IMG/VR virus record: IMGVR_UViG_3300037427_000695
Coordinates: 1 to 36,657 of that record
DNA length: 36,657 nucleotides
Strand: one strand, 5' to 3'
Source: a virus
In this document: piece after piece, positions 3 through 22,200 of the stretch
How positions within the stretch are numbered: the first letter of the stretch is position 1
How the letters are laid out: the number at the start of each line of letters is the position of its first letter
Translations under genes and position numbers: made by a program
The notes under the pieces: model-generated
What the model was told of the DNA's origin: nothing
What the model saw: only the letters and a program-made list of their open reading frames with translations
Database searches by the model: none

Positions 3-191
3 ATCACCTTTTGTGTTAGTGAAAGACCAACAACTTGTGGACATTCTTTACATCCAACCTGTAAAGTAGCAATGCTAGTTTATACTAACCACTGGAAAGA
101 TTGTGAGTTAGTTGTTAACAACAATTACACAGAAGATTCCACACTAAGTATGTACCAGGCGCAGGAACATAGGTATTCAGATGTACAGTGA
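3..191 (+). CDS. possible C-terminal end of an upstream gene (partial)
   Basis: An open frame enters from the left edge and runs 62 codons to a TGA at 189-191. The conceptual peptide has three cysteines near its start (CVSERPTTCGHSLHPTCK) and ends in a hydrophilic tail, YQAQEHRYSDVQ. I do not recognise the family. An open frame of this length could arise by chance in AT-rich DNA, and the competing frame from base 1 closes at 67-69. The codons look plausible for this phage. The first copy of the CTAAGTAT motif (141-150) lies inside this frame, which argues either that the frame is spurious or that the repeats begin within the gene end. Confidence 0.33.
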   Translation: MTFCVSERPTTCGHSLHPTCKVAMLVYTNHWKDCELVVNNNYTEDSTLSMYQAQEHRYSDVQ

Positions 192-226: not shown

Positions 227-260
227 GTTTTCCACAGTTATTAACACATTTGTGGAAAAC
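227..260. promoter_or_regulatory. inverted pair of cyanobacterial-type DnaA boxes
   Basis: TTTTCCACA at 228-236 and its exact reverse complement TGTGGAAAA at 251-259 form 10-bp inverted arms (227-236 and 251-260) around a 14-nt AT-rich spacer. TTTTCCACA fits the general DnaA-box consensus TTWTNCACA and is the form described for cyanobacterial origins. The pair could bind host DnaA, or it could simply form a hairpin. No run of T follows the right arm, so it does not look like an intrinsic terminator. Confidence 0.5.
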
Positions 261-484
261 TACGCATTTCTTTTAAATACTTAAATAAACATATATGCGT
301 GTTATGTATCATCAACTGTGTGTCCACTAAATGATACTCTAAGGGGTCTAATCGTGTCATTATGATGTTGACTTAGCGAGCGTAACATGAGACGAACAGA
401 ATGTCAATTAGGGGATACACAGTTTGTAACACTCAGTCCATCAAGTATTATGTCAGTTGTTATAACATAAGACCCTGACAGTTG

Positions 485-513
485 TTGACAGTCTGTGAGT
501 ATCATGTTATAAT
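485..513 (+). promoter_or_regulatory. perfect consensus sigma70 promoter
   Basis: TTGACA at 485-490 and TATAAT at 508-513 are separated by exactly 17 nt, so both hexamers and the spacer match the bacterial sigma70 consensus. Transcription would start near 520 and run rightward. In T4-like phages, host-type promoters of this strength normally drive early genes. One copy of the GAGTAT repeat lies in the spacer, so a protein binding the repeats could block or modulate this promoter. Confidence 0.7.
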
Positions 514-542
514 ACTAATGTACACAAACAAAGAGACAATCT

Positions 543-571
543 ATGACACTCTGAGTAACACTGAGTATTAT
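543..571 (+). promoter_or_regulatory. weaker sigma70-like promoter
   Basis: ATGACA (543-548), a 17-nt spacer and TATTAT (566-571) each differ by one base from the consensus hexamers. The -10 element is part of the CTGAGTATTATG repeat copy. It would add a second start about 60 bases downstream of the perfect promoter. Confidence 0.35.
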
Positions 572-727
572 GTAATTGCAGTCCTTAAGTAATAAGAACT
601 GTGTGACACACTAAGTATCAATTAGGGACAGTGTTTTGCGTCTTATGTGTTATCGTGGTGTGGCGTGATGCGTGTTTTAATAGGGTTCCTAACAAATAAG
701 CTATAAACGACCCAGATCGACTTCGTG

Positions 728-757
728 ATATCAGTTTAGAAAAAAAATTTCTGATAT
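728..757. repeat. inverted repeat upstream of the AbrB-like gene
   Basis: ATATCAG (728-734) and CTGATAT (751-757) form a 7-bp inverted repeat around an A/T-rich 16-nt centre containing a run of eight A. It sits just ahead of the small DNA-binding gene and could be an operator. The stem is AT-rich and no T tract follows, so terminator function is unlikely. Confidence 0.35.
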
Positions 758-786
758 ATAAAAACATAGGTCAGTCCACGCATATT

Positions 787-951
787 GTGAAAAAAATTAA
801 TAAAAAAAGAATGACTCTAAGGGTCGATAGTATAACTGACGAATATACTCTTACAATCCCTGAAACATTCTGTAACCAATTAGATTGGTATGAGGGTTCG
901 GATGTTATAATATCAATAGATGGAGACGGCATTTACATAGAGGAAGCATGA
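787..951 (+). CDS. mini AbrB/MazE-like DNA-binding protein
   Basis: A 54-residue frame starts at a GTG (787). An internal ATG at 811 gives 46 residues, and neither start has a clear ribosome-binding site. The core fits the swapped-hairpin AbrB/MazE/SpoVT fold: an N-terminal strand (TLRVDSITDEY), the hallmark TIP (TLTIPETF), a short helix ending in L and W, the EGSDV turn, then strands VIISID and IYIEEA. Family members bind DNA as dimers and act as antitoxins or transition-state regulators. No toxin gene is recognisable next to it, so a transcriptional or replication role at the adjoining repeat-rich region is the more likely inference. Its TGA overlaps the ATG of the next gene (GCATGA), implying translational coupling. 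The family call is moderately secure; the function is not. Confidence 0.6.
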   Translation: MKKINKKRMTLRVDSITDEYTLTIPETFCNQLDWYEGSDVIISIDGDGIYIEEA

Positions 952-1115
952 ACACAACTTTCCATGTCTACGATAATAACAACACCCCAGTAGGTGATTT
1001 AATTAACCTTGACGAGGAACAGTTGCTAAAGAAGATTAAAGAGAGAGTTAACAAGCATAAAGAACTTACTATTGTAAAAGTGGAGTCCGAAGACATGACA
1101 GATGCCTCATATTAA
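948..1115 (+). CDS. small hypothetical protein, 55 aa
   Basis: The ATG overlaps the stop of the AbrB-like gene by four bases, and the 3' end overlaps the next start (1102) by 14 bases. That arrangement supports a real gene in an operon. The protein is soluble and charged, with a possible amphipathic helix (LDEEQLLKKIKERV) followed by a strand-like TIVKVES. I do not recognise a family. It could be a partner of the upstream regulator, but nothing in the sequence shows this. Confidence 0.6.
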   Translation: MNTTFHVYDNNNTPVGDLINLDEEQLLKKIKERVNKHKELTIVKVESEDMTDASY

Positions 1116-1731
1116 GAAAGAAGAATTCAATTTATTCCCCACACCAGTCTCATGTTATAACTTAGGGGCATTTGATATTAGTGAGATAGTAGATATAAAG
1201 GATACTATAACAACTGATGATCATGCACTTGTGGAAAACGGCACAAGTTCCTTTATACCTGATTGTGGAAAAGAGTATTTTTTAGATAAGACACCGAAGA
1301 TAAAAGAAGTAATACAGATGTGTGTTAATGATCATGCAAGAGCATTGGGGTTTGATGAACTAGATGTTGGACAGAGTTGGTGTAATAAGACTCCTAAAGG
1401 GGGTAGGTTAGATTTACATATACACAATGGTAGTGTTCTTAGTGGGGCATACTATCCAATACTTACAGAAGAGATAGCACCATTACTATTTCGCAACCCA
1501 CTGTACCTTTATAAGACGATGGAGTGGTTCAAATACCACTCAGAGTATGCTACTGTATTTCATCCAGTAGAACCGTACCAGGGACTCTTAGTGTTATTTC
1601 CTAGTTGGTTAGATCATAAAACAGAGACCGAGATCGGCGAGCGATTCGTTGTTAGTTTCAATACTAAATATCGTGACTCTAATGAAACGCTGGTTAGTAA
1701 TCAGTATGATAAGGTACAATCATCATGTTAG
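1102..1731 (+). CDS. 2OG-Fe(II) oxygenase-like protein (TIGR02466-type)
   Basis: This 209-residue protein resembles the phage 2-oxoglutarate/Fe(II) dioxygenase family often labelled TIGR02466. It has an N-terminal FPTPV element, then GQSW at 90-93, metal-ligand candidates H106 and H108 in LHIHNGSVLSGAYY, the FPSWLDH motif at 166-172 with H172 as distal ligand, and R181 as candidate 2-oxoglutarate-binding arginine before FVVSFN. Such enzymes hydroxylate proteins, nucleotides or small molecules, and the substrate here is unknown. The gene overlaps its upstream neighbour by 14 nt and its downstream neighbour, another oxygenase-like gene, by 7 nt, so the pair is probably co-translated. An insertion of about 20 residues after GAYYPI (LYLYKTMEWFKY) separates it from the compact family pattern. 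Confidence 0.75.
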   Translation: MPHIKKEEFNLFPTPVSCYNLGAFDISEIVDIKDTITTDDHALVENGTSSFIPDCGKEYFLDKTPKIKEVIQMCVNDHARALGFDELDVGQSWCNKTPKGGRLDLHIHNGSVLSGAYYPILTEEIAPLLFRNPLYLYKTMEWFKYHSEYATVFHPVEPYQGLLVLFPSWLDHKTETEIGERFVVSFNTKYRDSNETLVSNQYDKVQSSC

Positions 1732-2318
1732 TTGATAGTAATGGTGAATACTCAGGTCCATACTTAAAGAGGTTCGCAATCCCCTTTGCGAATTATAAGA
1801 TACCTGACTGGGATAAAAAGAAAGGACAATTAATGGAGATCTATGATGAGTATAGTAAGGATAACTTAGAGGAACAGCAAAAGCATTTGAAACCTTATGC
1901 AGATCATGTAACTGATTATGAAACACAAGAAGATTCTAAAAGTTATTGTCAGTTAATTGATCCTATACTTAGGGAAGACTTTACACATATACTAAGTGCA
2001 TTTGGTCATAGGGGATATAATTTTAGAATAGGTAAGGCATGGTTTCAATATTATGAATCATCACATGGGCATCCAGTACACAATCATGCATTTGGTGGAT
2101 ATAGTTCTGCATTGTTTTTAGAATATGATCCAGAGTGTCATAGACCAACTACATTTGTAAGTCCAATCTTAAATAACTTTGATGGTAATGTAGTTGATTA
2201 TATGCCAGAACCTGTAGAAGAGGGGCATTTATTAGTTTTTCCTTCAAGTCTTATGCATTATGCACCTACTAATACTACTAATGTACGGCGAACTATACTT
2301 TCAATGAATATATTCTAA
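1725..2318 (+). CDS. second 2OG-Fe(II) oxygenase-like protein
   Basis: This 197-residue protein starts 7 nt inside the previous gene. The C-terminal half has the double-stranded beta-helix signature: His-rich ESSHGHPVHNHAFGG with H114, H116, H119 and H121, FPSSLMH at 172-178 with H178, and R188/R189 before TILSMNIF. The N-terminal 90 residues differ from the first oxygenase and include a charged, probably helical stretch (KKKGQLMEIYDEY). It belongs to the same broad superfamily but is not a recent duplicate of its neighbour. The substrate is unknown; modification of a phage or host macromolecule is possible. A promoter follows its stop codon, so this gene probably ends the first transcription unit. 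Confidence 0.7.
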   Translation: MLVDSNGEYSGPYLKRFAIPFANYKIPDWDKKKGQLMEIYDEYSKDNLEEQQKHLKPYADHVTDYETQEDSKSYCQLIDPILREDFTHILSAFGHRGYNFRIGKAWFQYYESSHGHPVHNHAFGGYSSALFLEYDPECHRPTTFVSPILNNFDGNVVDYMPEPVEEGHLLVFPSSLMHYAPTNTTNVRRTILSMNIF

Positions 2319-2369: not shown

Positions 2370-3128
2370 ATGGCTAAAGGATTTACTGTTAAAGCAAAGA
2401 ACCCACCAAAGAAGAATGTAGAGAGTGAATGGGATTATGATAAGGCATGGGAATTACTAAGGGGTAAGAACTTAGTATTCTGTATGCCTGGTCGTGGTTG
2501 TTCATTTGTATTCCTAAAGAACTTTGTACAACTTTGTTTTGATTTAGTTCAGCATGGGGTCAGCATACAGATCTCACAAGATTACTCATCAATGGTTAAC
2601 TTTGCTAGATGCAAGTGCCTTGGTGCAAATGTCTTAAGAGGACCAGATCAGATACCTTGGGATGGTAAGTTGCAATATGATTATCAGTTATGGATTGATA
2701 GTGACATTGTATTCAATACTCCTAAGTTCTTACAACTAGTCCTTATGGATCAAGATATTGCTGCAGGTTGGTATATGACAGAAGATGGTCAAACTACTTC
2801 TGTTGCTCACTGGCTCGATGAGGATAACTTCCGTAATAACGGAGGAGTTATGAATCATGAGACTGGTGAAACCATGTCTAAGCGTAAGAAACCATTTACT
2901 GTCGATTACACAGGATTTGGATGGGTTCTTATTAAGCATGGTGTATGGGAACATGATAAGATGAAGTATCCTTGGTTTGCTCCTAAGATGCAGGTCTTTG
3001 AAAGTGGAGAAGTACAAGACATGTGTGGAGAGGATGTCAGTTTCTGTCTAGATGCTCTCGATGCTGGTTTTGAGATATGGTGCGATCCTCGTATCCGTGT
3101 AGGACATGAAAAATCAAGAGTTATATAA
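2370..3128 (+). CDS. GT-A-fold glycosyltransferase-like protein
   Basis: This 252-residue protein has the layout of a small GT-A glycosyltransferase. A nucleotide-binding-like start (LVFCMPGRG, residues 35-43) is followed by a Rossmann-type region. The acidic metal/nucleotide-sugar motif WIDSDIVF (108-115) carries the DxD pair D110/D112. Then come GFGWVLIKHGVWE (182-194), the GEDVSFC motif (220-226) supplying a likely catalytic acid, and C-terminal WCDPRIRVGHEK with H246 as possible metal ligand. It would transfer a sugar from a nucleotide donor to an unknown acceptor such as phage DNA, a virion protein or a host surface glycan. It has no signal peptide or membrane segment. A strong sigma70-like promoter lies directly upstream, and the next gene overlaps its end by 23 nt. 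Confidence 0.75.
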   Translation: MAKGFTVKAKNPPKKNVESEWDYDKAWELLRGKNLVFCMPGRGCSFVFLKNFVQLCFDLVQHGVSIQISQDYSSMVNFARCKCLGANVLRGPDQIPWDGKLQYDYQLWIDSDIVFNTPKFLQLVLMDQDIAAGWYMTEDGQTTSVAHWLDEDNFRNNGGVMNHETGETMSKRKKPFTVDYTGFGWVLIKHGVWEHDKMKYPWFAPKMQVFESGEVQDMCGEDVSFCLDALDAGFEIWCDPRIRVGHEKSRVI

Positions 3129-4360: not shown

Positions 4361-4935
4361 TTGAAACTTTATTTTCAACACCACTTTATTATACAAAAGT
4401 AGATGGTTTCCATAATATCCAAAAGGAGATTGAAAAGGGGTTGGATAAACTTGAATTTAAATATAAAAAACATTGGGGTGAGACACATTTACTTGCTCCA
4501 CAAAATTTTAATGAAAATGTTTTAGATATATGTGAATTAAATACTTTAAGCAATGAGATTGATAAACATGTATATCGTTATTTTGAAGAAATAGGAAGGA
4601 CGGGATATACATCAGAATATAAAATAGTTTCTTGGTTCACAAAATGTGGAAAAGGAAATTATGCTCACACACATACTCATGGTGCTGCAGATATTTCTGG
4701 GGTATATTATTATAAAACTAATAATAAAGACGGTAATATATTTTTTGAAACACCCAACCCTCACTTAAGTACTTCTGAATATTTTACTCATCTAGGTACT
4801 GCATGGGATCATATACCTGTTGAAGGTAAATTGTTGATATTTCCTGGTTGGTTACAGCATGGAGTTAGGACTAATTGCACAGATAATACTAGAATAAGTC
4901 TATCGTTTAACATAACATTCCAAAAGGGAGTATAA
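4357..4935 (+). CDS. third 2OG-Fe(II) oxygenase-like protein (TIGR02466-type)
   Basis: This 192-residue protein is the clearest TIGR02466-type member in the window. It has the N-terminal LFSTPLYY, a helical middle, then WFTKCGKGNYAHTHTHG with H104, H106 and H108, the strand ISGVYYYK, FFETPNP, FPGWLQHGV (162-170) with H168 as distal metal ligand, and R179 in TRISLSFN as 2-oxoglutarate anchor candidate. I start it at the ATG overlapping the Ycf35 stop (ATGA) rather than the TTG at 4351. It is closer to the first oxygenase than to the second, but clearly divergent from both. Codons are more A/T-biased than in the surrounding small genes. The substrate is unknown. A late promoter overlaps its stop codon. 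Confidence 0.8.
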   Translation: MIETLFSTPLYYTKVDGFHNIQKEIEKGLDKLEFKYKKHWGETHLLAPQNFNENVLDICELNTLSNEIDKHVYRYFEEIGRTGYTSEYKIVSWFTKCGKGNYAHTHTHGAADISGVYYYKTNNKDGNIFFETPNPHLSTSEYFTHLGTAWDHIPVEGKLLIFPGWLQHGVRTNCTDNTRISLSFNITFQKGV

Positions 4936-4938: not shown

Positions 4939-4963
4939 ACCCTGACATGTACTGTCATTATTG

Positions 4964-5359
4964 ATGGCGATAACCAAATCTCGTGCATATAAGGATATAA
5001 CTCTCAGTTTTCAACCAAATCCTGTGACTGGTGATTTGGGAATGTTAAAAAATGAGAGGGCTATTCAGCGTTCAGTAAGAAATCTTGTTCAAACAGGAGT
5101 AAATGAGCGTCCTTATAGTGATTTGGGATCAGATGTCACTGATAGTTTATTTGGATTTGTTGATGATGCTCAAGGAAGCGTCATTGCTAGGCAAATTGAG
5201 GATGTTTTAGGTGCGTGGGAACCCAGAATTGCTAATGTTAGGGTTGAAGCTGACCCAAGACCTGATAGAAATGCCTTTGAAGTACATATTTTTTATGATA
5301 TTGTTGGTGAAGACTTCCAAACCCAATCTTATGCGTTCGTATTAGAGGCAACTAGGTAA
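4964..5359 (+). CDS. 25: gp25-like baseplate wedge protein
   Basis: A 131-residue member of the GPW/gp25 family. The pattern TGDLGMLKNERAIQRSVRNL, GVNERPYSDLGSDV, SLFGFVDD, then ...DVLGAWEPRIANVRVEAD is diagnostic. In T4, gp25 joins gp6 and gp53 in the baseplate wedge and helps start sheath assembly. I use the ATG at 4964, which gives the usual MAITKSRAYKD start, rather than the TTG one codon earlier. The late promoter TATAAATA is 33 nt upstream, and the gp6 gene starts five bases after this stop. Confidence 0.92.
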   Translation: MAITKSRAYKDITLSFQPNPVTGDLGMLKNERAIQRSVRNLVQTGVNERPYSDLGSDVTDSLFGFVDDAQGSVIARQIEDVLGAWEPRIANVRVEADPRPDRNAFEVHIFYDIVGEDFQTQSYAFVLEATR

Positions 5360-5364
5360 AAAAC

Positions 5365-7284
5365 ATGCCCGTATCAAAGTTTACTAACCTTGATTTTGAC
5401 CAAATTAAGGAACAAATAAAGGATTATCTAAGATCAAACTCAGATTTTACTGATTTTGACTATGAAGGATCCAATATGTCGATTCTGATTGACATATTAG
5501 CGTACAATACTTATATTTCAGCGTTCAATAGTAATATGGTGGTCAATGAATCCTTTTTGGATTCAGCAACTTTAAGAGAAAATGTAGTTTCTCTTGCAAG
5601 AAATATAGGATATGTGCCTAGATCTCGTAAATCTGCTAAAGCAATAGTAAATTTTGACTTTAAATTCAATGGAAATAGTAATAGTGTTAAATTAGCAAAG
5701 GGTTTAGTCGTAGTTGGAGCAACAAATAACACTTCTTATACATTTTCTATCCCAGAAGATGTAATTGTACCTTCTCCTATTGATGTAGGAACAAATATTA
5801 CTGTAAATCCACCAAGAACTGCTCAATTTAGAAATCTTAATGTATATCAAGGCACACTTTTAAGAAAATTTTTCACAGTTAGTGGTAGTTTAGACCAAAG
5901 ATTCATTTTAGAGAACTCTTTTGTTGATACAGAGTCAATTAGAGTGTTTGTAAGGAAGTCTGGATCAAGTTCTGGACTAGAATATTCTAAAATTGACAAT
6001 ATAACAGCAATTAATGAGAAATCTAACATCTATTTGATCCAAGAAGTCAAAGATGAGCAGTATGAATTGTTATTTGGAGATGGATTGTTTGGTAAGAAGT
6101 TGGATAGTGGTGATATTATCGAAGTTAGTTATATTATTACTGATGGAAAGGCAGGAAATGATGGAACTAACTTCTCATTTAGTGCAAGTGCGGAAAATGA
6201 TGCAGGTGCTCCTATTGCTCCATCTCAAACAGTAGTAGTATCAACCGTTCAACCTGCTAGAGGAGGCGGTGAGATAGAAAGTGTTAACTCTATTAAGTAT
6301 ATCGCTCCTAGGGTCTATTCCTCCCAGTACAGGGCGGTTACAGCGAAGGATTATGAAGCAATTGTACAGAGTATATTCCCTGATGCAGAGTCTGTTTCTG
6401 TTATGGGTGGTGAAGAACTAGATCCACCTGAATTTGGTACTGTTGTATTAAGCGTAAAACCTAGAAATGCAACATATTTGTCCGATTTCTCTAAAGTTCA
6501 AATTTTAGACGGATTAAAGAAGTATTCAATGGCAGGAATTAACCAAAGAATAGTTGATCTTAAGATTCTTTATATTGAATTGGATGTTAGTGCATATTAT
6601 AACGCTAATGTCTTTAGTGATATTGACGGATTGAAAGCACAAGTAACATCTGCATTAAATGCTTATGGACAAAGTACTAATCTGAATGCGTTTGGTGGTA
6701 GATTTAAGTATTCTGATGCTTTAAAAGTTGTAGATGGTACAAATGAAGCGATTACATCAAATATTACCAAATTAACCATGAGAAGGGACTTAAAACCAAT
6801 CTTTAATACCTTTGCTCAGTATGAATTGTGTTTTGGTAACTCATTCCATGTAGTTGCTAGTGGTAAAAACATTAAAAGCAGTGGATTTAAGATTGACGGC
6901 AATCCAAATACACTATATTTCTCTGATCTCCCTCATGAAGATCTAAAAACAGGTGATATTGCTGTAATTCAAATAGTTAATATTGGTGGTGAAAATTCTC
7001 CTGTAGTTATTCCTTCTGCTGGAACAGTTGATTATGTTAAAGGTGAAATTATCATCAACACTATCAATATATCCGAAACTAATCTTGGATCTGGCATGAT
7101 TGAGATTCAGGCATATCCAGAATCCAATGATATTATTGGATTGAAGGATTTATACCTTCAATTAGACATGTCAAATAGTAAGATAAATATCGTAAAAGAC
7201 ACTATATCTTCTGGACAACAAATATCTGGAATTGGGTATAAGGTCACTTCTAGTTATTCAAACGGCACTATCACAAGATCTTAA
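5365..7284 (+). CDS. 6: gp6-like baseplate wedge protein
   Basis: This 639-residue protein is close in length to T4 gp6 (660). The start matches the gp6/baseplate-J type: NLDFDQIKEQIKDYLRSN, YEGSNMSILIDILAYNTY, and NESFLDSATLRENVVSLARN. The middle contains QYELLFGDGLFGKKLDSGD followed by ARGGGEIESVNSIKYIAPR and YRAVTAKDYEAIV, all typical of the J-like core. Gp6 forms the ring linking baseplate wedges. The position directly after gp25 supports the call. The protein is probably cytoplasmic until it assembles into virions. Confidence 0.92.
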   Translation: MPVSKFTNLDFDQIKEQIKDYLRSNSDFTDFDYEGSNMSILIDILAYNTYISAFNSNMVVNESFLDSATLRENVVSLARNIGYVPRSRKSAKAIVNFDFKFNGNSNSVKLAKGLVVVGATNNTSYTFSIPEDVIVPSPIDVGTNITVNPPRTAQFRNLNVYQGTLLRKFFTVSGSLDQRFILENSFVDTESIRVFVRKSGSSSGLEYSKIDNITAINEKSNIYLIQEVKDEQYELLFGDGLFGKKLDSGDIIEVSYIITDGKAGNDGTNFSFSASAENDAGAPIAPSQTVVVSTVQPARGGGEIESVNSIKYIAPRVYSSQYRAVTAKDYEAIVQSIFPDAESVSVMGGEELDPPEFGTVVLSVKPRNATYLSDFSKVQILDGLKKYSMAGINQRIVDLKILYIELDVSAYYNANVFSDIDGLKAQVTSALNAYGQSTNLNAFGGRFKYSDALKVVDGTNEAITSNITKLTMRRDLKPIFNTFAQYELCFGNSFHVVASGKNIKSSGFKIDGNPNTLYFSDLPHEDLKTGDIAVIQIVNIGGENSPVVIPSAGTVDYVKGEIIINTINISETNLGSGMIEIQAYPESNDIIGLKDLYLQLDMSNSKINIVKDTISSGQQISGIGYKVTSSYSNGTITRS

Positions 7285-7290
7285 AATCGG

Positions 7291-10200
7291 ATGATTGAAA
7301 CATATAGCCCCTTATCTACCAGAGTTAAGACTTATCAACTAGTTGCAGACCAAGCACCAGAGTTTGCAGTAGCTGAAAACCCTCTATTTGAAAAATTTCT
7401 AGAGCAATATTATATTTCTCAGGAATATCAAGGTGGCCCTGTAGATCTTGCTGAAAATATTGACAAATATATTAAAATTGATAATTTAACAAAGGAAGTT
7501 ATATCTGGAAGCGTATCTTTAGCATCAAATATTACTTCAACTGATGATATAATCACTGTTTCTGATAATACTAAAGGATTTCCTAAAAAACATGGTCTTA
7601 TAAAGATTGATGATGAAATTATTACATATACAGGAATAACTACAAACAGTTTTACTGGATGTATTAGAGGATTTAGTGGAATTACAACATATCACCAAGA
7701 AGGTGATCCAAAAAATTTAGAATGGAAGCAAACTACTGCTACATCTCATAATAGTAGTTCATATGTTCAAAATTTAAGTGCTTTATTCCTAAAAGAGTTT
7801 TATGACAAGTTAAAATCATTGTATGCTCCTGGTTTTCAGGGAGTTGCGTTAAGTCCTAGTTTAGATGTTAATAATTTCATCAAAGAAGCAAGAAGTTTAT
7901 ATGAATCTAAGGGTACTGACGAATCTTTCAAGATTTTATTCAAAGCACTGTTTGGTTTAGAGCCAAAAATCAATGATCTTGAAAAATACCTCATAAAACC
8001 CTCTTATGCAAACTATTTGAGAAGGGAATCCTTTACAGTAGAGACAGTTTCTGGAGATGCTACAAAATTAATCGGACAAACACTATTTCAAGATGCTGAT
8101 CCTAACAATCCTCTTGTTAAATCTGCATCTGGACCTATTTCTGAAGTTGTTAGCATCAGAGATAACTATTATCGTTTATCTGTATTCATTGGATATGATG
8201 ATAGGGACTTAATACAAGGCACATTCATTGTACCAGGTCGTACTCAAGTAATAGGTAAAATTGGAATGGGTGCAACCGTTCTTACGGTTGATTCTACCAT
8301 AGGATTTGGTCAAACTGGAAATATACAAGTTGGATTATCTTCTGATGCTTATTATCAAGAATTATCTTATACTGAAAAGACTGTAAACCAATTTATTGGT
8401 GTAACTACAACTGCAATTGAAATTCCATCTACTACTAATGTATTTACACCTACTGTAGTGTATGGGTATGAAGATAATGATACTACTAAACCAGTTGAAA
8501 TGAGAATAACTGGTGTTCTGCGAGATTTTGAGTCTACACAAAGTTTATATGGATTAAGTGGAGAATCTAGAATTAAAGTTAAGAATCTTGGAAGATATGT
8601 AACCAATCCACGGTCTTCAAGAACTTATGAACAGATTTTCTTCAATTCATGGATTTATAATACTAGTGCAAGGTATAAAGTCAAAGATATAAGTGGATCT
8701 ACCTTTACTTTAGATGGTTATATTGACAAATCTAGTTTAAAGGTTGGTGATACTGTTGATTTACTTGTTAGGGATAACTTAGCAGCAGAAACCATTGTAG
8801 CAAACAATTTAGTTGTTAGTTATGTCAATATTTCAAATAATTCGGTAAGTATACAAGGATCTTACACTATAAGTCCTTCATTAGACTATGATATAAGAAG
8901 AGTCCAGAATAAAGCGACTAGTAGTTCTGTTCCTATCATTGGTGGACAAAATCAGGTTCTATCTGATATTAGTAATACATATGTTCTTGATTTTAATAAA
9001 TCTGAAAGTGGAAAACAAGAAGCGTATGTTGCATCTAACTCTATTCCATCATATCAAATTGATACTGATAAAATTCATGCTGATTTAACAAATCCAACAG
9101 TATCTGGTGGAAATTTCCAATCTTATAATAGTCTAACTAACAAATATTCTGTTATTTCATTCTCTTCACCAGTTCCTTTTAAAACAGGAGATGAAATATC
9201 ATATATTATAGGTCCAGGATCTGATCCTATTGCAGGACTTGAAAAAGACAGTTATTTTGTTGAAGTATTAACTCCAAATAATAAAATTAAGTTATATCCA
9301 TCTAGATCGTTTATTGCGTCTGGATTAGCTCAAGAATTTACACCTCCAACAACATCTGGTTATCATGATTTTGTTAGAGTTGAACAAGCAAGAAAATCAA
9401 TCTTCCCAAGTAGGGTTCTTAAGAGATTTGTTCTTGAGCAGGATTTGGAAGCAGGATCCAATCAAGTAACTAGTTCTGATCAAACTTTAGATGGTAATAC
9501 TGGTATATTAGTTAATGGTGTTGAAATTAATAACTACAAATCAGACAAATTTGTATATTATGGACCATTAAAGTCTTTGAATATTGTTAATTCTGGAAGG
9601 AATTATGATGTTTTAAATCCACCCTCAATAACTATAGAAGATAATACAACTGGTATTAATACAGCATTTGGTAGAGTAGCAGTTGGTGGAACGCTAACAG
9701 ATGTTTTAATTGATCCTGTTGATTTTGAAATTAAAAAAGTTATTTCTGTTGATGTTCATGGTGGTAATGGATCTAATGCAAAAGCACAAGCTGTAACAGA
9801 ATTATACTATAGAAAGTTTGCATTTAATGCAAAGTCATTCTATGATGGTGGTACTATTGATTGGATGAGTGATAGGATAATATTAGATAAACCTCATTAT
9901 TATAATACTGGTGATAGGATACTTTATAGTCCTAATAACAATAATGTACTTGGACTTCATACAACAGCAGCTGCTGGTATAGATACATGTTTAATTAAAA
10001 ACCAATCATACTATGTTGGTGTTAGAAGTGATACAATATTCCAACTTTATAGAAGTAAAAATGATTCTGTTCTAGGAATTAACACTGTTGGGTTTGGATC
10101 AACTGCTGCAGCTTTAAATAATGGTCTCCATGAGTTTAGAGATTTTGAAACTAAGAGAAGAATATCTAGAGTTAGTATTCTTGAAGGTGGTACTGGTTAT

Positions 10201-13200
10201 ACAAATAAGAGAATTTCTGTACAACCTTCTAAAATTAGTACAGATAGGGATCATATTGAATTTGAAAATCATGGGTTTAAAGATGGTGAAGTGGTTCATT
10301 ATGGAATAACATCTACTGGTGGTACTGTTATTACTGGATTATCTACAAATTCTCAATATCAAGTTTTAACTATTGATGAGAATAAGTTCAGACTTTGTTA
10401 TTCTGGTATTGCTACTACTAGAATTCCAGATCGTACAAATTATAAGAATAAAGAATATGTTAGATTATCAGGAACTGGATCTCAATATCAAGATTTCTAT
10501 TATCCACCAATAACTGTTGATGTTAATGTTATTACTGATTCAAACACTCAAGTAAATTTAACAGCAACTCCTATAGTTCGTGGTCCTATTATAGACACTA
10601 TTTTATATGATAGGGGTCAAAATTATGGATCATCAGTTATTAATTTTGAGCAACCACCTGATGTTTCTATAAATTCTGGTAGTTTTGGACAAATTGGTCT
10701 AATCATTGTTAATGGAAAAGTAATTGATGCTTTTGTTCAAAGTAGTGGAATTAAATATGATGGTCCACCAGATTTAGAGGTAGTTGGTACTGGTACTGCT
10801 TTTGGTGCGAAACTTCGTGCTATTATGAATGGTGAGGAAATTTCTGATGTAATAGTTCTTTCTGAGGGATTAGGTTATCCAGATACATCAACAGTAACAG
10901 TTAAACAACCAGGTGAATCCGCAACTTTCTCGACAAAGGTTAGAAGACTTGTTGGTAACAAGTTCTTTACTAGTACTAATGAAGAGGGAGACTATCTTGC
11001 TCCAGTAGAAGGTGGATTAGCAATTGAAAGTGTTGCTTATGGAGCAACAGTTAGAAATGTCTTTAACGATGATGGATCAGGTCATTCTCCTATCATTGGA
11101 TGGGCATATGATGGAATACCAATTTATGGTCCTTATGGATTTGATGTTTCTGATGATATTCAGTCTTCTTCTAGAAGGATGGAATCTTCTTATAGTTTAA
11201 ATGCATCTAAAGTCGAAAATAGACCTTCAACAGCAGAATTTCCAGAAGGATTCTTTATTGAAGACTACTATTATGATGCTGCTGGTGATTTAGATGTGCA
11301 TAACGGTAGATTTACTAAAACGCCAGAATTTGAGAATGGTATATACGCATATTTTGCTAGTGTAGATAGTTTTGGTAATCCAAAGTTCCCATATTACATA
11401 GGAGACACATATAGAGCAATACCTCTAAGGGTAAATACTGTTTCTGGTGAGAAAATTAAACAAAATAACTTTGATTTTGAAAATTCAGATTTAGTTAGAA
11501 ATACCTTCCCATATAAGATGTTTGGTGATGGTGCATCTTATGATTTTGTGTATCAACCATATAAAGTAGTAGAACAGATTGCAAGACCAGATAAGATAGG
11601 TACTGGTAGAGTTGAAGAAATTAGAATCGTTTCTCCAGGAACAGGATACACAACAGGATCTCAAATATACTTTGATGATGAAGGAACTGGTGGATTTGGT
11701 ATTAGAGCATCTGTTAAAGCAGTAACTGGTAAAACAGTTAATAAGATTGATACAGAATTCTTTGATTATAACAATGTAGTATTTGAATGGTCACCACAAG
11801 CAGTTATTGCACATTTTGATCCATATCATACATTTAACCTTTATGATTATATTCAGGTTGCTGGATTATCTACTAGTGTTACTAAACTTGTAGGATCACA
11901 TCAAATAAATTCATTAAATTACTCAACAAATCTTTTAGAAACTGGATTTGTTGGAGTAGTTACTGATATTAAGGTTCAGTGGGTTCCAGAAACTGTTTCT
12001 GTTGGTTCTACTATTGGTTTTGGTACAATGACACCAAAACAAGTTGTAGTTGGTACTGGTGCTAGTTACACCATAGGGGGAGATCCTGTTGCAATTGGAT
12101 CAGAAACTGCACAGATTATTAACATCAATAGGGAAGATAATGTAATTAGAATTCGTAGATCAACAGGTGTTAGTACATCTGGTATTGGTTTAACACAATC
12201 TCAAACTCAAGGTCTTATTGGTCTTGGTATTAGTTACTATTCAAATAGATTAGATATTCCTTTAACTATCGAACCTTTTGAATCTAATGTAAATAGAAAA
12301 TTCTATTTTAATGCACAAGAATCTGTTGGATTTGGTACAACTGTTTCTCAGACAATAACAAGGAATTATCAGTATCTTGGAGTTACTAAAGAGAGATCTC
12401 TAAGAACCCAAGAAGTTTATATTGAGAATCATGGTTTAAACACCAATGATATTCTTAATTTTACTGTTTCTCCTAGTGGAAGTAATGTATCATGTGCAAC
12501 ATCTGGCATTTATGCTGGAACATTCAATTTACCATCTACACTTTATACAACAAGAAAGACTAAAGATACTATTGGACTAAAAACAACTAAAACATCTGGC
12601 GATATCTTCTTTATTAGTGGTGGTGGAGATTATAATGACTTTTTGTTTGAAACTGTAGAAAGTGAGCAAGTTACTGGAAGTGTACAAAACATTTTATCTA
12701 ATATACAGACTTCTGAAGCTCATGGATTATCAATAGATGACACAATCAATTTAATTGTTAAACCAGGTCTTTCTACTGGTATTGGAACAACTACTTTTGC
12801 TACACTAAAGAAAGTAAATGATTATTTGATTGTTGATCCAATAGATGTTGCTGCATCTGGTATTAATACAACTTCAAATAGAATTAGTCTTTATAAGCAT
12901 GGATTAATTAGTGGAGATAGGGTTCTGTATACAACATCTTCTACTTTCCCTGGTGGAATTAGTGAAAGAGAGTATTATGTCATTAGAATTGATGATAATA
13001 CAATTCAACTTGCAAATACATTAAAAGAAACTCAAGGAACTCCAAATGTTGTTAATATTACAAGTTCTGGTGGATCTGGACAAGTTCTTAACCCAATTAA
13101 TCCACAGTTAAGACCATATGCCAATAATGACATTGTTTTTGACTTAAGTGATCCTAGTTTGTTGAGTTATGACTTAAAATTCTATTATGACAATAAATTT

Positions 13201-16200
13201 ATCAATGAATTTGTTGGATCAGGAACAAGTCTTGGATTTGAAGTTGTTGGTGTTGGAACTTCAGCAACTGTTGGTGTTGCTTCTACTAATCCAAACTCTG
13301 TATACCATCCTACGGTAAAATTAAGTCATTCTGACAATATTGATACTCTTTATTACAATTTATTTGGTCCAACTGGTATTATTACTGCTGATAACACAGT
13401 AGTCAATAGAAATGAAATAAAACATGTTAGAAGTGGATATAATGGAAATTATTCTGTTGTTGGTGTTGGAACTACAGTATTTACTGTTAATTTGCAATTT
13501 AAACCAGAATCTTTGAGTTATGATAGAGATGATTGTGAAATTATAGAATATACTACTACTGCTGCAAATGTTACGGGTGGTATTGCTACTGTATCGATAG
13601 GTGATGGTGGATACAATTATAATACAATTCCTGGAATTACAAGTATTCAAGGAAGTGGTATTAACGCAACATTAATCCCAGAATCAGTATCTATCAACAA
13701 ATTAGAGAAAATGACTGTTCCTGAGGATGTCTATGGATATCCTTCAGATAATACACTTAAACCTGACGCATTTATTCCTAGAATTGTTGAAATTGATGAT
13801 TATGGTACTATTACTGAAGTTAAGGTTGTTTTTGGTGGTAAGTTCTATATCAATGCTCCATCATTGGTTTTATATGATAGGGGTTCAGGTGAGATCTTAG
13901 ATAATGGTCTTATTACATGTGAATTAAGTGATTCTGCTGTTACTAAGGCAACTGTGTCTGTTGCTCCAGTTGGGTTGTCAAATAATGATTATGGAGTTGC
14001 TCCTGTTAGAAATAGTAACGGTATTAGCATTTTAAGTACAGAAGCACAAGCAGGATTCTTAACATGTAAGATTACTACACCTGTTTTGGGGTATGATGAA
14101 GAACCTTTTGCTGTTGGTGATAAAGTCCTTGTTGAAGGTATTGAATTTGATTCTGGAAGTGGTGATGGGTTTAACTCAGGTGATTATAAGTTTGAAGCAT
14201 TTACAGTATCTGATTATAATGATGCTGTCAACCCAAGACAAGTAACATTTGATTTAAACGGAATTACAACAAATCCTGGTACTGGAGCAACTGTTAAATT
14301 TGGATTTGCTCAATTAGTAGAAGCAAGTTATCTTGCTAAATTTGAAGTAGTTAAAGGTAATTCTGATTTCGTTCAGAATGAACCATTTAAGAGAAATGAC
14401 AATGCGGATGCAGATATTCAGTTAGATTTCTTAAATAAGAATACTGCTAAGATTGTTGTTAGTGGAGCAGAACCTTTAGATATAACTGATGTTTTAACTG
14501 GTAAACTAAGTGGATCTAAGGCAAGAGTAGTTTCTATTGTTGAATTTAATGGTAGTTTCAATATAGATGCTTCTGTGAAGACATTAGTTGGATGGAGAGA
14601 TAATGTTGGATTAATGAATGATATTAATCAGGTATTACCTGATAATGATTACTATCAGAATATGTCTTATGCGATTGAGAGTCCTAAGACATATGAAGAC
14701 CTCATCACTTATGTAAATGATGTGGTTCACCCATCTGGGATGAAAAACTTTGCTAATACTGAAGTTATAGCAAAAGGTAGACCAGGTGATACTTTTATAC
14801 CAGCAGATGATGCTGGTGGACTTGTTCTTGATTTTACAGGAGATGCTCTAAGAGCAGACTCTATTTACCCTTATGATTTGGGTAGAGACTTCTTATCTTC
14901 AGGAACTGTTTCAAAATTTGTAGAATTAAGATCTACTCGACTTTCTGACTTCATTTTAAACAAAACTAACAGAGTTTTGAATATTGATGATATTAGTCCT
15001 CAATTCGTGTCTAATGAGTCTAATGATCTAAGCGATTATAGAATTATTGCAACTTATCCTGCAGGAAGATTTTTCCAAAGGTTCTTAACACAAACTGTTC
15101 ATCAAGCAGAAGATCCTAAGAAGAACCATTACCAATTTAATGAATTCATTTCAGTTACTGTTGATGAAGATACTTATTTGCTTCAAAAAGCAGATATGAC
15201 CAATTGGAATCAAGTTGTTGGTCTTGGTACTGGTTATGCTACTTTTGATACGAGATATTCTGGACCTCAATCTCAAACACAATTAATCTTCCGTCCAAAT
15301 GAACCTTTCGACACAAACTACGAAGTAAAATCACTTCAAACCAATTTTGCTGATTCTGTTGGTGTTGGAACATCTGCTTTTGGTCATATTCGTTTAGAAG
15401 GTGGAAATGTCCAATGTTCTGCTGCATCTACACTTGGAATTAGTTCAATAACCAATGTTATTGGAATGTCAACATTGACATCTCAAGCTGCTATAGTACA
15501 GTTCTTGGTAATAGACAAAGAAGTTGATAAGCAAGTTGATTATTTGGAATATGCTGTTATGCATGATGGGTCAAATACTTATCTTACTGAATTAACAGCA
15601 TTCAACTCAAAACAGAATTTAGCTGGTATATCTAATCCTAGTTTTATTGGTACAGTTACATCTAATATTGATGGTGGTTTAGTTAAGTTAGATTTTGAAA
15701 ATGGTCGTACCAACCAAGTTAATGTTAAATTCAAGTCTATTATTGTAGATCCTTCAACTGCTGGAGCAGATACTACTTACAGGTTTAAGATTCCATTCAC
15801 TCCAGATGGTACTGAAAGAACAGGAAGATTAGAAGTTAGTAGTCAAGCAAAAGCTGGTATTGCAACTATTTGTGGTTTAAGTAGTACTGCAGATTTAACT
15901 GTTAAGTCTACAGTTCATGTATCATATGGTGCAACTCAGTCATTACATCAGGTTTATGTATTAGCAGATCCTGAAAAGAGTCAGACCTTTATTACTGAAT
16001 ATCCTTTAGCTTCTGTAGGTTCTACTACTGGAGTAGGTACATTTGGATCCACTTACAGATCTGATGGTACTTTTGGTTTAGAATTCCATCCAACAGTTTC
16101 TGGTATTGTTAGCGTTACTGCATACAATGAAGTAATGTATAAGATCTTAGATCCTAACGGTACACTTCAGGGTGTTGGTGAAATTAATTATGGACAAATT

Positions 16201-19200
16201 TACGAATCTGTTGCTCAAAACTTATATCTTGGAATTAATAATAGAGACATAAAGGAATTTGATCTCAAATATAAGGGAGTTCCAATTTATGCCCGTGAAA
16301 CTAATATTACAAATCCAGATGAATTAAACCGTGTTACAGGTGTATTTGCACAAGAGCATTTCTTTATGCCATTTGAGCAACTAACTTATAAGGCAGATTC
16401 TAACCTTATTGGTATTGGTGGATCTGCTCTAGTTTATAAAACTGGTGCTGGTGTAACTGGATATCTTCCAGACACTGTTTATGCAATAAAGGATAATAAT
16501 CAACAATTTAGAATAGCATTAACAGAAAGTGATGCTAGAATAGGTAATGGTGTGACTTTCCTTGCTGATTCTGGTACTGGTAATCAGCATAGATTCACTA
16601 TGAGAAAGACGGACTCTAAGTCTATGGTTTCTATTAGTGGTTTAGTACAAAAACCAATATCATATACATCTATATCTTATGACTTGGATGTTCCTGTTGC
16701 TGGTTTTGTAACTGCATTTGTGTTGAGTGGTATATCTTCTATTAAATCTGGTGATCTTATTAAAATTGAAGATGAGTTTTCTATCGTAAAGAATGTCGGT
16801 ATTGGTACATCAACCTTTGGTCCTCCTGTTGGTATTGGTACATGGAGTCTTGTAGAAGTAGAAAGAGGAGCAGTTGGTACTGCTGCTACTCCACACTCTG
16901 CTGGTGAGACTGCTAGAATCTTTAGAGGATCTTTCCAGATAGTAGATAGTACAATACATTTCACACAAGCACCTCTTGGTGGTGACACTGGAATTATTAA
17001 CCCAAATAACCTTCCATATGCTAGAGCATCATTTGGTGGTAGAACATTCTTAAGACAAGATTATACTAAGAACCAAATATTTGATGATATGTCTAATTCA
17101 TTCGATGGATTAGAGACTGCTTATCCATTAACATCTATTGGTGTTGCGGTTACTGGTATTGGTACTACTGGTGGTAATGGTGTACTATTTGTTAATAGTA
17201 TATTCCAAGCACCTTACAGTGAAAACAACCCCAATGCTAACTTTAGAATAACAGAGCAAGCTGGAATTAGTAGTGTTGTATTTACTGGTATTACTTCATT
17301 TGGATATGACACGCCGATAATAGATGTTGGGGATATTAATGAAAACCAATTACCTAGGGGTGGTGTGATCATTTCTGTTGGGTCTACTCCAGGTCAGGGA
17401 TATGCTCCATTTGTAGGTGCAAATGTAAAACCAGTAGTTGATGCCTATGGTAAGATTACAAGTATAGTTGGTGTTCCTACTGCAGGAAGTAAGGTTGCTA
17501 TTAAAACTGCTTTCTATGACGAGAAGACTGGAATTATGGAGGTCAGCACAGTTGGACCTCATAATCTTAATATTGAAGATCCAGTTAAGATAGAGGGTAT
17601 GCAGTTAGAGTGTATTGGTTATAAGCACATTTACAGAAGTTCTGTAACCAATGCTCTAGTACTAGGTGGAAATTACACTCATAAGCATGTTGGTGTTACT
17701 ACAGATGCGATATTTACTGGTGGTGATTATCCTCATAAGTTTGTATCTGCACTAACAAATGGTGTTAATGTCCAAAGTGGTGCGGAGTCAGGTAATCAGA
17801 AGACTCCTAATAACGCAACATATAACGCTGGTACTGGTTTATTAACATTAGAATTTGCATCTGCTCATGGTATGTCTACTAATGATACCATTACATTGGA
17901 TGCAGGTGCGGTAACATTAACTTGTGAGAGAGATAATTATCAAACTCCTCATAGTTATCCTCGTTCATCTGACCCAATATCAGGTGTTACTACTGCAATA
18001 ACTAAGACTTCAAATACAGCATTTACTCTTAATGTTGGTATTTCTACTAGAGTAGTTCATGCACCTACCAATCTTGCATATGATGCACTGAAAGGTGAAA
18101 TGAAGGTAGCGGTAAGTACTGCTGGATTTACTACAGCATCATCTCATTCAATCACAACTTGTGCATATGACCCAACATTAGGTCAGATAGACTTTACTAT
18201 TACTGGACATGGATTCCAGAATGGAGAATATATTCAGATTCCTGAGAATGCTCTGATCTTTACATGTGCTAAAGACTCTCATGGTACTCAGCATACCTAT
18301 CCAAGAAATAGTGTTGGTGATAAGGATCGTATTGCAAATCGTTGGTTAGCAATTGATCAGGTTGGTGTCAACACATTTAGAGTTAATGTTGGTAAGGCTA
18401 ATGACGCAACTGCTGGTGTTCATACTTATGTTGGTGCAAATTCACCACTTAGAAAGGCAGTTACTGTAATTGGTATTCAGACAAATTCATTTAGTCTATC
18501 TTGTGAGAGAGATAACTACGCTACTACTCACACATATCCTCGTGCAGGATACAGTCATAGATTTGTAAATGCTGCTGCTGGTGCAGTTACACCTAATGTT
18601 GGTACTGCTTTAACACCTACAGATGCTTCTTATAACGAAACTACTGGTGATCTAACACTTACATTCCCATCACATGCTTTAGTTGCTGGTACTAATACAG
18701 TTCAGATTGCTCAAGATTCACTAGTCTTTACTTGTGATCTAGATGGTCATAACAGTCAGCACTCATATCCACGCACCACTGATCCTTTCTATGGTACAAA
18801 TATAGCGGTTGCATCTACTACTGCTACTACTGCCACAATGTTTGTTGGTAAGTCTGGTACAGGAGATCCTGTTAATAATAGACAGATTGGTATTGCATCA
18901 ATTGGTGTTGGTCAACTCTACTTCCATGTTGGTGTATCTACTATCAGTTATGCTAGTATCAGTGATGCAGTATACAATTCATTAACTGGTGATTTAACAC
19001 TTTCCATAGGATCTACTGGTGTTGCTAGAGTTCTAGCACAGAAGGGTAATGTTGGAATCGCTACTAGTGCAATTACTATGAGTTGTGATAAAGATGGATA
19101 TGCAACATATCATGCTTATCCAAGGGTAACTGATCCTTATCATAATAAGATAGTAGCATTTGGTAAAACCACTTCAGATACTATTACTGTCAATGTAGGC

Positions 19201-22200
19201 AAATCTGGTATTGGATATGGTTCTACTATTGGTATTACATCCTTTGTTTATGATTATACAAGTGGTATTGCTACAGTTATTGCTGATAGTAACCATAACT
19301 TTACTGATCCAAATCTAATTGGTATTGCTACTGGATCTCTTACATTTACTTGTGAGATGGATGGTCAATACAGCAATCATACTTACCCTCGTGCTTCTGA
19401 CCCTGTAAATGACAAGTTCTTAGAAGTTCGTGAAGTAACGCAAAATACATTTGATGTATTTGTTGGTATTACTACTAATGTTGGTTATACACCAACTGAT
19501 GCCACATATACTCCTTCTACAGGTATTTTGGATTTGGTAATTCCAAATCACAACCTTATGACTGGAACATCAGCTAAGTTTAAAGATTCTTCTCTTAACT
19601 TTGCGTGTTCTATGGACGGAATGGTAACTGAGCATTCATATCCTAGAGTAACTGACCCTTATTATGATACTGCTATTTCTGTTGCTTCTACTACAGCAAC
19701 AAATGTTAGATTTAATGTAGGTACATCACCTACTGTTAACTATAGTGTTACTACTGCAACTTATACACCTAGTACTGGATTCCTTGACCTTAATATTGGT
19801 CAGCATGGACTAGCAGCACAAACTTCAATTAAGTTAGCGACTGAATCACTCATTTTCCGTTGTGCTAAAGATAGTTATATTTCATCTCATGCATACCCAC
19901 GCACTACAATTGATACTCAGACTGTAAATGGTGCAGTATATGACGCAAATGCTGGCATAATGACCGTTACAGTTGTACCTGGCGGCAGACTTATTCATGA
20001 TGGCGACTTTATCAAGTTCGATAATGACTCTATTTCATTCAAGTGCGACATGGATGGCGGCACTTCAACTAAGACATATCCAAGATCATCTGATCCTGTC
20101 AGTGGTAAGTGGTTGCCTATTACAGGCATTACAACCACCTCGTTTAGTGTCGAAGTAGGTAAGTCACCTATCCAACCGTTTAGCATCTCCAGTGCCGTCT
20201 ACGACCCCACTGCTGGCATTGTAACAGCTACTATAGGTGATCATGGTTTCATGACTGGTCAATCTATCCAAATTTCACCTGAATCTATGTCATTTAGGTG
20301 TGGATTAGACACATACCAAAGTCTCCATTATTATCCAAGATCGAGTGATCCTGGATTTACAACTGCGGTCTCTATCGCTTCTACTACCGCAAATTCAATT
20401 GCTTTCCAAGTTTTAGCGTCACAACCGTCTACAAATATTTCAACTCATCATTTTGTACCGCATGATGGACTAACTGCTGAATCAGGTACGCAATATGATG
20501 GTACTGTTGGTATCATGACAGTTAGATCTGCTAATCACGGTCTTAACAATGGTGATTGGGTTCTATTTGATACTGGTGCAGTTTCCTTCACATGTGCTAA
20601 GGATGACTACAGTACAACTCATGCATATCCTAGAACAACCGATCCTTACAGTGGTAAGTGGATTCAGGTTTCTAATGTAACGACTAATACCTTTAGAACT
20701 AATGGTATGAGTTCTCCTGATACATCAGATCATATATTTGCTTCTGGTGTAACTGGTGCTATTAAGAGATCACAGATTCATGGTGGTGGTGCTTACGGGC
20801 ATACCTTCCAAGCTGCTGGTGTTGGTAGCATGGATCAGAAGCGTGATAGAGCATATGATCAAGCAATCGGTATTCACTCTGTTGGATCTAGTTCACATAC
20901 AGCAACTGACGCAGTATATGATCCTGTAGCAGGTATCATGACAGTTACTGTTGCTGGTCATGGATTCATGAACAGTGATAGAGTTAAGTTTGATACTGGA
21001 GCGATATCACTGAAGTGTGCTAGAGATGCTTATAGAATTGCTCACGCATATCCTCGTGTATCAGATCCTATTCATGGTAAGTGGGTATCCATAGCAAGTA
21101 CTACTGTTAATACATTTGCGGTAGATGTTGGTGCAACTGGTCCTAACGATCAATTTGCACATACCTTTGATAGTGCAACAACAGGTGGTATTAAGAAACA
21201 GACTGGATATATTACACTTCAAGTTGGTGTTTCAACTGATACATCAGAGCATCGTTATGACATTGGTGCAGGACATGAGGCAACTAACGCAGTAGTCTCT
21301 GGTGGTAACCATACTCATAGATTCCTTAATGCTACTACTGGTGCAATTCAGTATGGTGGTAATTACGCTCATTCCTTTGTATCTGCTGCTTCTAGTGCAA
21401 TATACATTGATTCTTGGTCTGGTGCTGCTCTAACTCCAACAAATGCAGTATACAATCCTGGTACTGGTGTTCTACAGTTTACTGCTCCTAATCATGGATT
21501 AGTAAAACCTGAGAACTTTAAGTTAGCAGGTATCGGTGTTACATGTCAGTATGGTGCTAAGACATATCCTAGCGGAGTTCAAGGTTACTATTACACTGTA
21601 AGGTCAGTAGGAACTACTACATCCTTTACCACATTCGTTGGAGTATCTACATTAGTACATCCTTATACAGGTGGTGGTACAGTAAGAGTTGGTTTAACAA
21701 CTAACATTTATCCCGACTATGATCAAACATTGGATATAACTGGTATTATTTCTGCCAGAACATTTAAAATTAATGCTGGTATTAGTACTATTCACCACTC
21801 TTATCATAGTGGTGGTACTGTTGCTCCTTGGCATAATTTGACATTTGGTTCTGGATATAAGACAACTCTTGGAACAATTGATTCTATCTGTGCTCATGAT
21901 ACTGTGGGAAGTGGGGAAACCATTACCGCAATTGTTGGTGCTGGTGGATCCCTAATCTTTAATGTATCTAATGGTGGTACTGGATTTACTGAAAATGCTA
22001 CTATTAAAGCACCACAACCAAATGGTGAGTATCTAAGTATTCAGGGTAGTTACAGAGAAGGACTTGGTAATACTACAACTACTGGTGTTGGTTGTTCAAT
22101 AACAGTTGATATTATAGGAGTAAGCACTAGTTTCATTGGACTATCAACATCTCCAGAATTTAAATTATTTGAAGTTCAAAGATGGAATTTCTCAAAACTT

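Follow-up and report, generated by a model that had tools for sequence, protein, structure and literature searches.

A perfect host-type promoter and the gene-free DNA around it appear to belong to a conserved control locus of marine cyanophages

Why does a perfect sigma70-type promoter in a viral genome stand in front of a long stretch of DNA without any gene? We addressed this question in a virus record of 36,657 bases (IMG/VR IMGVR_UViG_3300037427_000695, positions 1-36,657), which is called the window in the following. Three of its open reading frames matched the T4-like phage proteins gp25 (4961-5359), gp6 (5365-7284) and gp8 (23699-25270), and the protein encoded at 2370-3128 has its relatives mainly in Synechococcus and Prochlorococcus phages (103 records); based on these matches, the window was assigned to a T4-like cyanophage. 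A single ORF of 5456 aa (7291-23661) occupies the position of gp7, the baseplate wedge initiator, according to the gene order of P-SSM2 and S-SM2, and the T4-type late promoter motif NATAAATA is found at 4931 (before gp25) and 23657 (before gp8). The features of the locus are listed in Table 1, where the first bases, open until a TGA codon, were taken as the 3' end of an ORF truncated at the contig end. Judged by the sequence and conservation of its parts, the promoter with its gene-free stretch appears to belong to a control locus that is conserved among viruses infecting marine cyanobacteria. We assign a probability of about one half to a reading in which the host reads the promoter, transcription leads away from an origin-like module and the resulting mRNA begins with an untranslated leader.

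Table 1 Features of the promoter locus, with positions counted from the first base of the window.
Feature	Positions	Strand	Description
Upstream ORF, 3' end	3-191	+	Stop-free translation to TGA 189-191
DnaA box 1, TTTTCCACA	228-236	+	Identity 1.0 in 10 relatives; cyanobacterial DnaA box, according to the accessible text of PMC4674748
DnaA box 2, inverted, TGTGGAAAA	251-259	-	14 nt past box 1; identity 0.97 in 10 relatives
A+T-rich tract beside the box pair	266-296		Candidate unwinding element; 30-bp stability reached by 0.7% of 80-nt blocks of the window
Perfect sigma70-type promoter, extended -10	485-513	+	TTGACA 485-490, 17-nt spacer, TATAAT 508-513, TG 505-506
Probable untranslated leader	514-786	+	No gene; no transcript-specific RNA structure seen
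Conserved DNA element TAAGCTATAAACGACCCA	697-714	+	One form of TATATAAAA-N14-TAAnCTAyAAA
Inverted repeat ATATCAG...CTGATAT	728-757		Named in the sequence-only reading; stem not maintained
TATATAAAA motif before the gene start	755-763	+	Sole copy in the window, both strands
First gene after the promoter	787-951	+	54-aa MazE/AbrB-like small protein, GTG start; PHROG 661, Pfam PF04014

When spacers of 16-18 nt are allowed, the promoter is the sole perfect sigma70 match in the window, so that the TTGACA-17-TATAAT noticed in an earlier sequence-only reading was confirmed and found to be unique. Shuffled sequences gave an expectation of 0.06 perfect promoters, and one or more was reached in 4 of 100 shuffles. 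The same reading had placed the first credible start codon near 787, which agrees with the GTG at this position and with the lack of + strand ORFs of at least 40 aa in 514-786, where the longest spans 24 codons. Its count of about 270 gene-free bases holds for the DNA after the promoter, but the true gene-free stretch already starts at 192 and comprises 595 bases (192-786, with no listed + strand ORF of at least 40 aa).

Perfect sigma70 sites are ordinary in T4-like cyanophages. In 13 cyanophage genomes we counted 74 perfect promoters (TTGACA-16..18-TATAAT, 2 to 8 per genome), of which 70 share the strand of the baseplate genes; the reversed pattern gave 3. Host-like sigma70 middle promoters of a T4-like cyanophage were reportedly described for Syn9 by Doron and colleagues in 2016. 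With its perfect hexamers, the promoter of the window is the same as such host-like sites of T4-like cyanophages, and it is unusual solely by its place in a conserved gene-free locus. A near-perfect second promoter (TTGACT-17-TATAAT, 2319-2347) lies ahead of the phrog_1574 gene at 2370, and P-TIM68, S-SM2 and Bellamy carry perfect promoters immediately before the same gene.

The promoter is retained among relatives. All 12 bases of both hexamers are kept at the homologous place in six of them (L118, L105, L123, L129, L126 and L016), which were selected via a downstream 17-mer and thus independently of the promoter. Among the nine relatives not selected by promoter, six keep 12/12 bases, L045 and L048 show TTGTTA-17-TATAAT, and L061 has none within the 320 nt searched, its 12/12 site lying further upstream. 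A perfect site is present at most 450 nt upstream in 20 of the 84 listed relatives fetched by the downstream 17-mer and in 0/84 mononucleotide-shuffled sequences; four of the 20 sites stem from the promoter-selected L008-L012, without which the count is 16/80. L008-L012 also seem to lack two 2OG-Fe(II) oxygenase genes of the window (1102-2318): the match stops at 1084/1113 and restarts at 2318, as if two genes had been inserted or lost in the interval that separates the AbrB-like gene from the phrog_1574 gene.

Upstream of the promoter, the gene-free stretch contains an inverted pair of TTTTCCACA, which is the DnaA box in most cyanobacteria as far as the accessible text of the source states (PMC4674748). 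The pair occurs at a constant 14-nt spacing with a variable spacer sequence in 12 clade members, namely those that have a pair; L061 has one box farther up (L174), and L045 and L048 have none within 700 nt. In 3 of these 12 members, TTTTCCACA is changed on one side to TTATCCACA, the sole box change and, in the part of the source available, the other form permitted by the DnaA box consensus (PMC4674748). Across the 13 cyanophage genomes, the inverted pair was found once each in Syn9, P-TIM68 and S-RIM12 (3/13; reversed pattern 0), where it lies 942, 145 and 572 nt upstream of the conserved element described below, in Syn9 inside an annotated 52-aa hypothetical gene. In S-SM2, two direct-repeat DnaA boxes precede the element by about 0.8 kb. 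The whole genomes of Syn9, S-RIM12, P-TIM68 and S-SM2, which were all retrieved after boxes had come to light at the locus, contain 16 strict boxes, 9 of them at most 1.5 kb upstream of the element, and among the 13 named phages four have a box within this distance and the other nine none. In the window itself, the box cluster consists of the pair (228-259) and boxes at 1230 and 1264 inside a gene. The latter are TGTGGAAAA 9-mers set 34 nt apart in the first 2OG oxygenase gene, and a further one lies at 4645; phage Syn1 (L166 722-754) has three consecutive TGTGGAAAA boxes with 12-nt spacing 3.4 kb upstream of its element.

The A+T-rich tract beside the pair is extreme in three sequences: 0.7-1.0% of blocks are equally low in the window, in S-RIM12 and in S-SM2, where it lies on the other side of the two direct-repeat boxes. 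The tract of Syn9 is weak, as 13.6% of blocks reach the same level, and P-TIM68 has no such tract next to its pair. In seven relatives of the clade, random positions are as low with a probability of 0.003-0.063, and the values for L023, L030 and Syn1 were weak (0.28-0.36).

Downstream of the promoter lies the conserved element, whose upstream half is degenerate in the window (TTTTAATA). Its 17-mer AAGCTATAAACGACCCA (698-714) is present in at least 120 viral contig stretches and, among the matches listed, mostly stands about 90-130 nt ahead of the start of a small gene, with L124 apparently unrelated. In a set selected solely by a neighbouring protein, CYTAABCTAYARANG was matched with at most two mismatches in 55/72 loci compared with 8/72 shuffled ones (72 of the 80 loci listed, 8 with less than 300 nt upstream having been dropped; one mononucleotide shuffle per locus). 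In addition, TATATAAAA was found at a fixed spacing upstream of TAAnCTAyAAA across 64 instances. These derive from 72 inputs, i.e. 59 of the 72 loci and 13 named phages (13 loci were omitted, 7 without a clear match and 6 as near-duplicates), of which 5 had no regex match and 3 (L211, L170 and L201) were removed by hand; 58 were kept for a consensus fold. Since the regular expression fixes much of positions 0-10, the free evidence is limited to the upstream TATATAAAA and its spacing. Forms of the element are located upstream of the baseplate genes in Syn9, Syn1, S-T4, S-CAM9, Bellamy, S-RIM12 and P-SSM2, and also in P-TIM68, S-SM2, S-SSM7, ACG-2014f, S-SKS1 and Sf-CH8. The 11-base core showed no genome-wide enrichment in 13 genomes (30 matches, 10 of them at the locus, versus 33 for the reversed pattern), and the 12-base CTATAAACGACC gave one match in S-SKS1 at up to one mismatch (reversed pattern 0). 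A hairpin excess was seen 18-110 nt upstream of the element, just before TATATAAAA (mean z -1.44 and 17 values below -2 among 61 loci, mononucleotide shuffles).

Two simple functions were considered for these motifs. As a late promoter of the group, TATATAAAA was rejected, having one copy in the window, and the strand-biased motif is NATAAATA, with forward/reverse counts of 40/3 in P-TIM68 and 39/4 in S-SM2. The product of the first gene after the promoter matched PHROG 661 (E 2.3e-8) and, just above the cut-off, MazE_antitoxin (PF04014, E 2e-5, 24.9 bits versus 24.7). An element serving as the operator of this AbrB-like gene alone is unlikely, because P-TIM68, S-SSM7 and S-SM2 all carry a form of the element without a local PHROG 661 match: P-TIM68 and S-SSM7 have none, and the sole PHROG 661 match of S-SM2 lies elsewhere.

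The relative arrangement of these parts was examined with a scan for TTTTCCACA-N14-TGTGGAAAA, which returned at least 120 viral stretches, 119 of which were examined. Among these listed matches, the element lies at most 1.7 kb downstream and points away from the pair in 74/119, compared with 2 for the reversed pattern and 2 for an element that faces the pair, and 50/119 have a perfect promoter downstream of the pair (reversed 2; facing 7). Promoter and element are both present in 44/119, and 44/44 of these listed loci are arranged as pair, promoter, element. Positions drawn at random from the same contigs scored the equivalent of 18/119 for the element and 13/119 for the promoter, values that we attribute to the fact that the contigs themselves contain the locus. 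The 45 listed loci without the element may include other kinds of phages. Several loci, among them L271, L284 and L305, lack the cyanophage element within 1.7 kb despite the fixed-spacing box pair and might represent origins of other phages or of phage-plasmids. Over the first 45 nt that follow the pair, the A+T content averages 70% in the 63 distinct listed loci with the element. When the 60 nt on either side of the pair were compared, the difference was modest: the promoter side is the less stable one in 40/62 distinct listed loci (p 0.034, uncorrected for relatedness), and it belongs to the least stable 5% of its own contig in 26/62 of these loci, compared with 11/62 for the other side.

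Altogether, a succession of box pair, A+T-rich tract, host-type promoter and element, placed upstream of baseplate genes, fits an origin-like control locus. According to this model, the locus would begin, in this phage and in some relatives, with an oriC-like module that is made up of the inverted pair of cyanobacterial DnaA boxes and the A+T-rich tract and precedes the promoter by 226-257 nt. Host DnaA might bind the pair and open the tract. The promoter at 485-513 would be a sigma70-type promoter read by the host, and its mRNA would start near 520, cross the 267-nt leader and enter the run of small genes from 787. As proposed here, the leader would be untranslated because the DNA is a control locus upstream of the baseplate gene cluster rather than RNA-coding. 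Transcription from the promoter could then help replication to start at the locus, in a manner similar to the promoter transcripts at T4 oriF. According to the available part of the cyanophage review, host polymerase may transcribe early genes from sigma70-like sites (PMC2984593).

The comparison with T4 reveals both parallels and differences. In the T4 record, oriF, or ori(uvsY), is annotated next to gene 25, and the accessible part of the review describes it as a promoter followed by an A+T-rich element, in which an R-loop arises from the transcript (PMC3016281). The cyanophage locus is alike in outline, with a promoter, a candidate A+T-rich element and the neighbourhood of gene 25, but it lies on the opposite side of gene 25 and adds DnaA boxes; the word 'DnaA' is absent from the main text of this T4 replication review. 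Whereas T4 oriF uses a MotA promoter, the promoter of the window has a full -35 hexamer, and cyanophages are described as having no motA in the accessible part of PMC2984593. An unwinding element after the promoter is a weak candidate: 719-835 ranks in the lowest 2% of segments, yet 15-21% of 160-nt blocks are as low, and Syn9 was negative. With cyanobacterial oriC (e.g. of Cyanothece 51142), the locus shares TTTTCCACA boxes in a gene-free stretch, here accompanied by the A+T-rich tract. Cyanobacterial oriC is usually located beside dnaN and has 1 to 12 boxes, as far as the source at hand covers it (PMC4674748), whereas the phage locus described here has a single pair, downstream of which a promoter and a phage element follow.

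A serious rival is a DnaA-regulated promoter without origin function. The locus would then be a plain regulatory region, in which the run of small genes gains several start points from stacked promoters and regulator sites, host DnaA would act only as a transcription factor on the promoter where boxes exist, and the long leader would be a by-product. The uniform order of pair, promoter and element in the listed loci with all three parts is as expected for a regulator as well. A DnaA box within 1 kb upstream is absent from 36 and present in 5 of the 41 element instances whose contig reaches at least that far, and detrended GC skew showed no extreme at the locus in Syn9, S-RIM12, P-TIM68 and S-SM2; both findings also speak against the origin part of the model. 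However, this explanation does not account for the fixed 14-nt inverted pair and the unstable A+T tract in several lineages. It also leaves unexplained why the body of the leader (514-697) is about as variable as the neighbouring gene (identity 0.72 versus 0.69 for 787-951) beside fully conserved blocks. In 10 relatives, 4 of them promoter-selected, identity to the window was 1.0 for the -35 and -10 hexamers, 0.92 for 260-299, 0.97 for 743-766 and, by selection, 1.0 for 698-714, compared with 0.65 for the spacer between the DnaA boxes. We regard a plain regulatory region as somewhat unlikely.

The leader itself was also considered as a source of RNA function. From the position of the promoter, transcription is predicted to start near 520, which would leave about 267 nt ahead of the first gene. 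We consider it likely that these form a long untranslated leader, since both hexamers are kept in six close relatives not selected by promoter and a terminator scan found no + strand terminator in 514-786. To this extent the sequence-only reading of the leader stands. Its other suggestion, a small RNA or a structured leader as the product of the promoter, found no support and appears improbable. It could draw on 267 nt without a gene, on the inverted repeat at the end of the leader and on a consensus fold of 11 sequences that was better than 100/100 column shuffles (z -3.45). Yet the opposite strand reached -3.47 and the two strands of the DNA upstream of the promoter -4.16 and -4.53 (gene: 0.67 and 0.18), and 1/33 pairs changed on both sides. 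As the opposite strand is equal and DNA that is not transcribed by this promoter is stronger, the fold is not specific to the transcript. This sole favourable result was thereby matched and exceeded, and the small RNA or structured leader was rejected. The single-sequence fold was likewise ordinary (z -0.73, 39/200 shuffles equally or more stable), no Rfam family reached its gathering score for the leader, the sole match being at chance level on the minus strand (E 0.95), and RNAalifold predicted 0 pairs over 58 relatives of the element region, approximately the last third of the leader.

The inverted repeat at 728-757 is present at the leader end as originally noticed, but its stem is fully paired in only 3 of 15 sequences (window counted), with no compensating change. 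It was rejected as a terminator or stem, as its right arm is fixed while the left arm drifts. The gene-free DNA contains imperfect inverted repeats, and nothing points to the transcript. Further imperfect inverted repeats before the promoter have arms at 314-340/398-424 and 383-407/485-509, the latter overlapping the promoter. Direct repeats CACTAAGTAT at 142, 209 and 609, in the gene-free stretch and the end of the preceding ORF, are possible regulator sites. The locus shares with the manA, wcaG and PhotoRC-II RNAs that they are conserved untranslated stretches in T4-like cyanophages; those are structured RNAs of cyanophages according to the accessible text of PMC2864571, whereas the leader of the window has neither an Rfam match nor transcript-specific structure.

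That the box pair is a decoy titrating host DnaA and thereby slowing host replication, with an unrelated promoter, is very improbable: one inverted pair per genome where present (3/13 genomes) would suit it, but a sink is expected to have many boxes at no fixed place, whereas the pair keeps a fixed position and order with respect to promoter and element.

The origin prediction for Syn9 is said to go back to Weigele and colleagues in 2007. In the available text of PMC2984593, a single theta origin is predicted for Syn9 with no location given, and this prediction is all that the literature, in the parts accessible, offers on where replication starts in T4-like cyanophages. We found no description of a DnaA-box locus in T4-like cyanophages in the accessible parts of PMC2984593, PMC5780444, PMC4674748, PMC2864571, PMC3037559, PMC5490813, PMC6359870 and PMC3016281. 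Doron 2016 and Weigele 2007, the most relevant studies, are outside this scope, and we therefore claim no priority. A further outcome is a conserved element of no known function that precedes the baseplate genes of the phages covered. Tentatively, and at somewhat less than even odds, we propose that some T4-like cyanophages begin replication at an oriC-like origin that borrows host DnaA, so that bacterial-style opening would be combined with T4-style priming by a transcript, with a host-type promoter and a phage element downstream. The candidate DnaA-box locus makes the question of where these phages start replication testable, and it can be addressed at named places in cultured phages, namely Syn9 52.5-53.6 kb, S-RIM12 46.5-47.4 kb and P-TIM68 58.2-58.4 kb.
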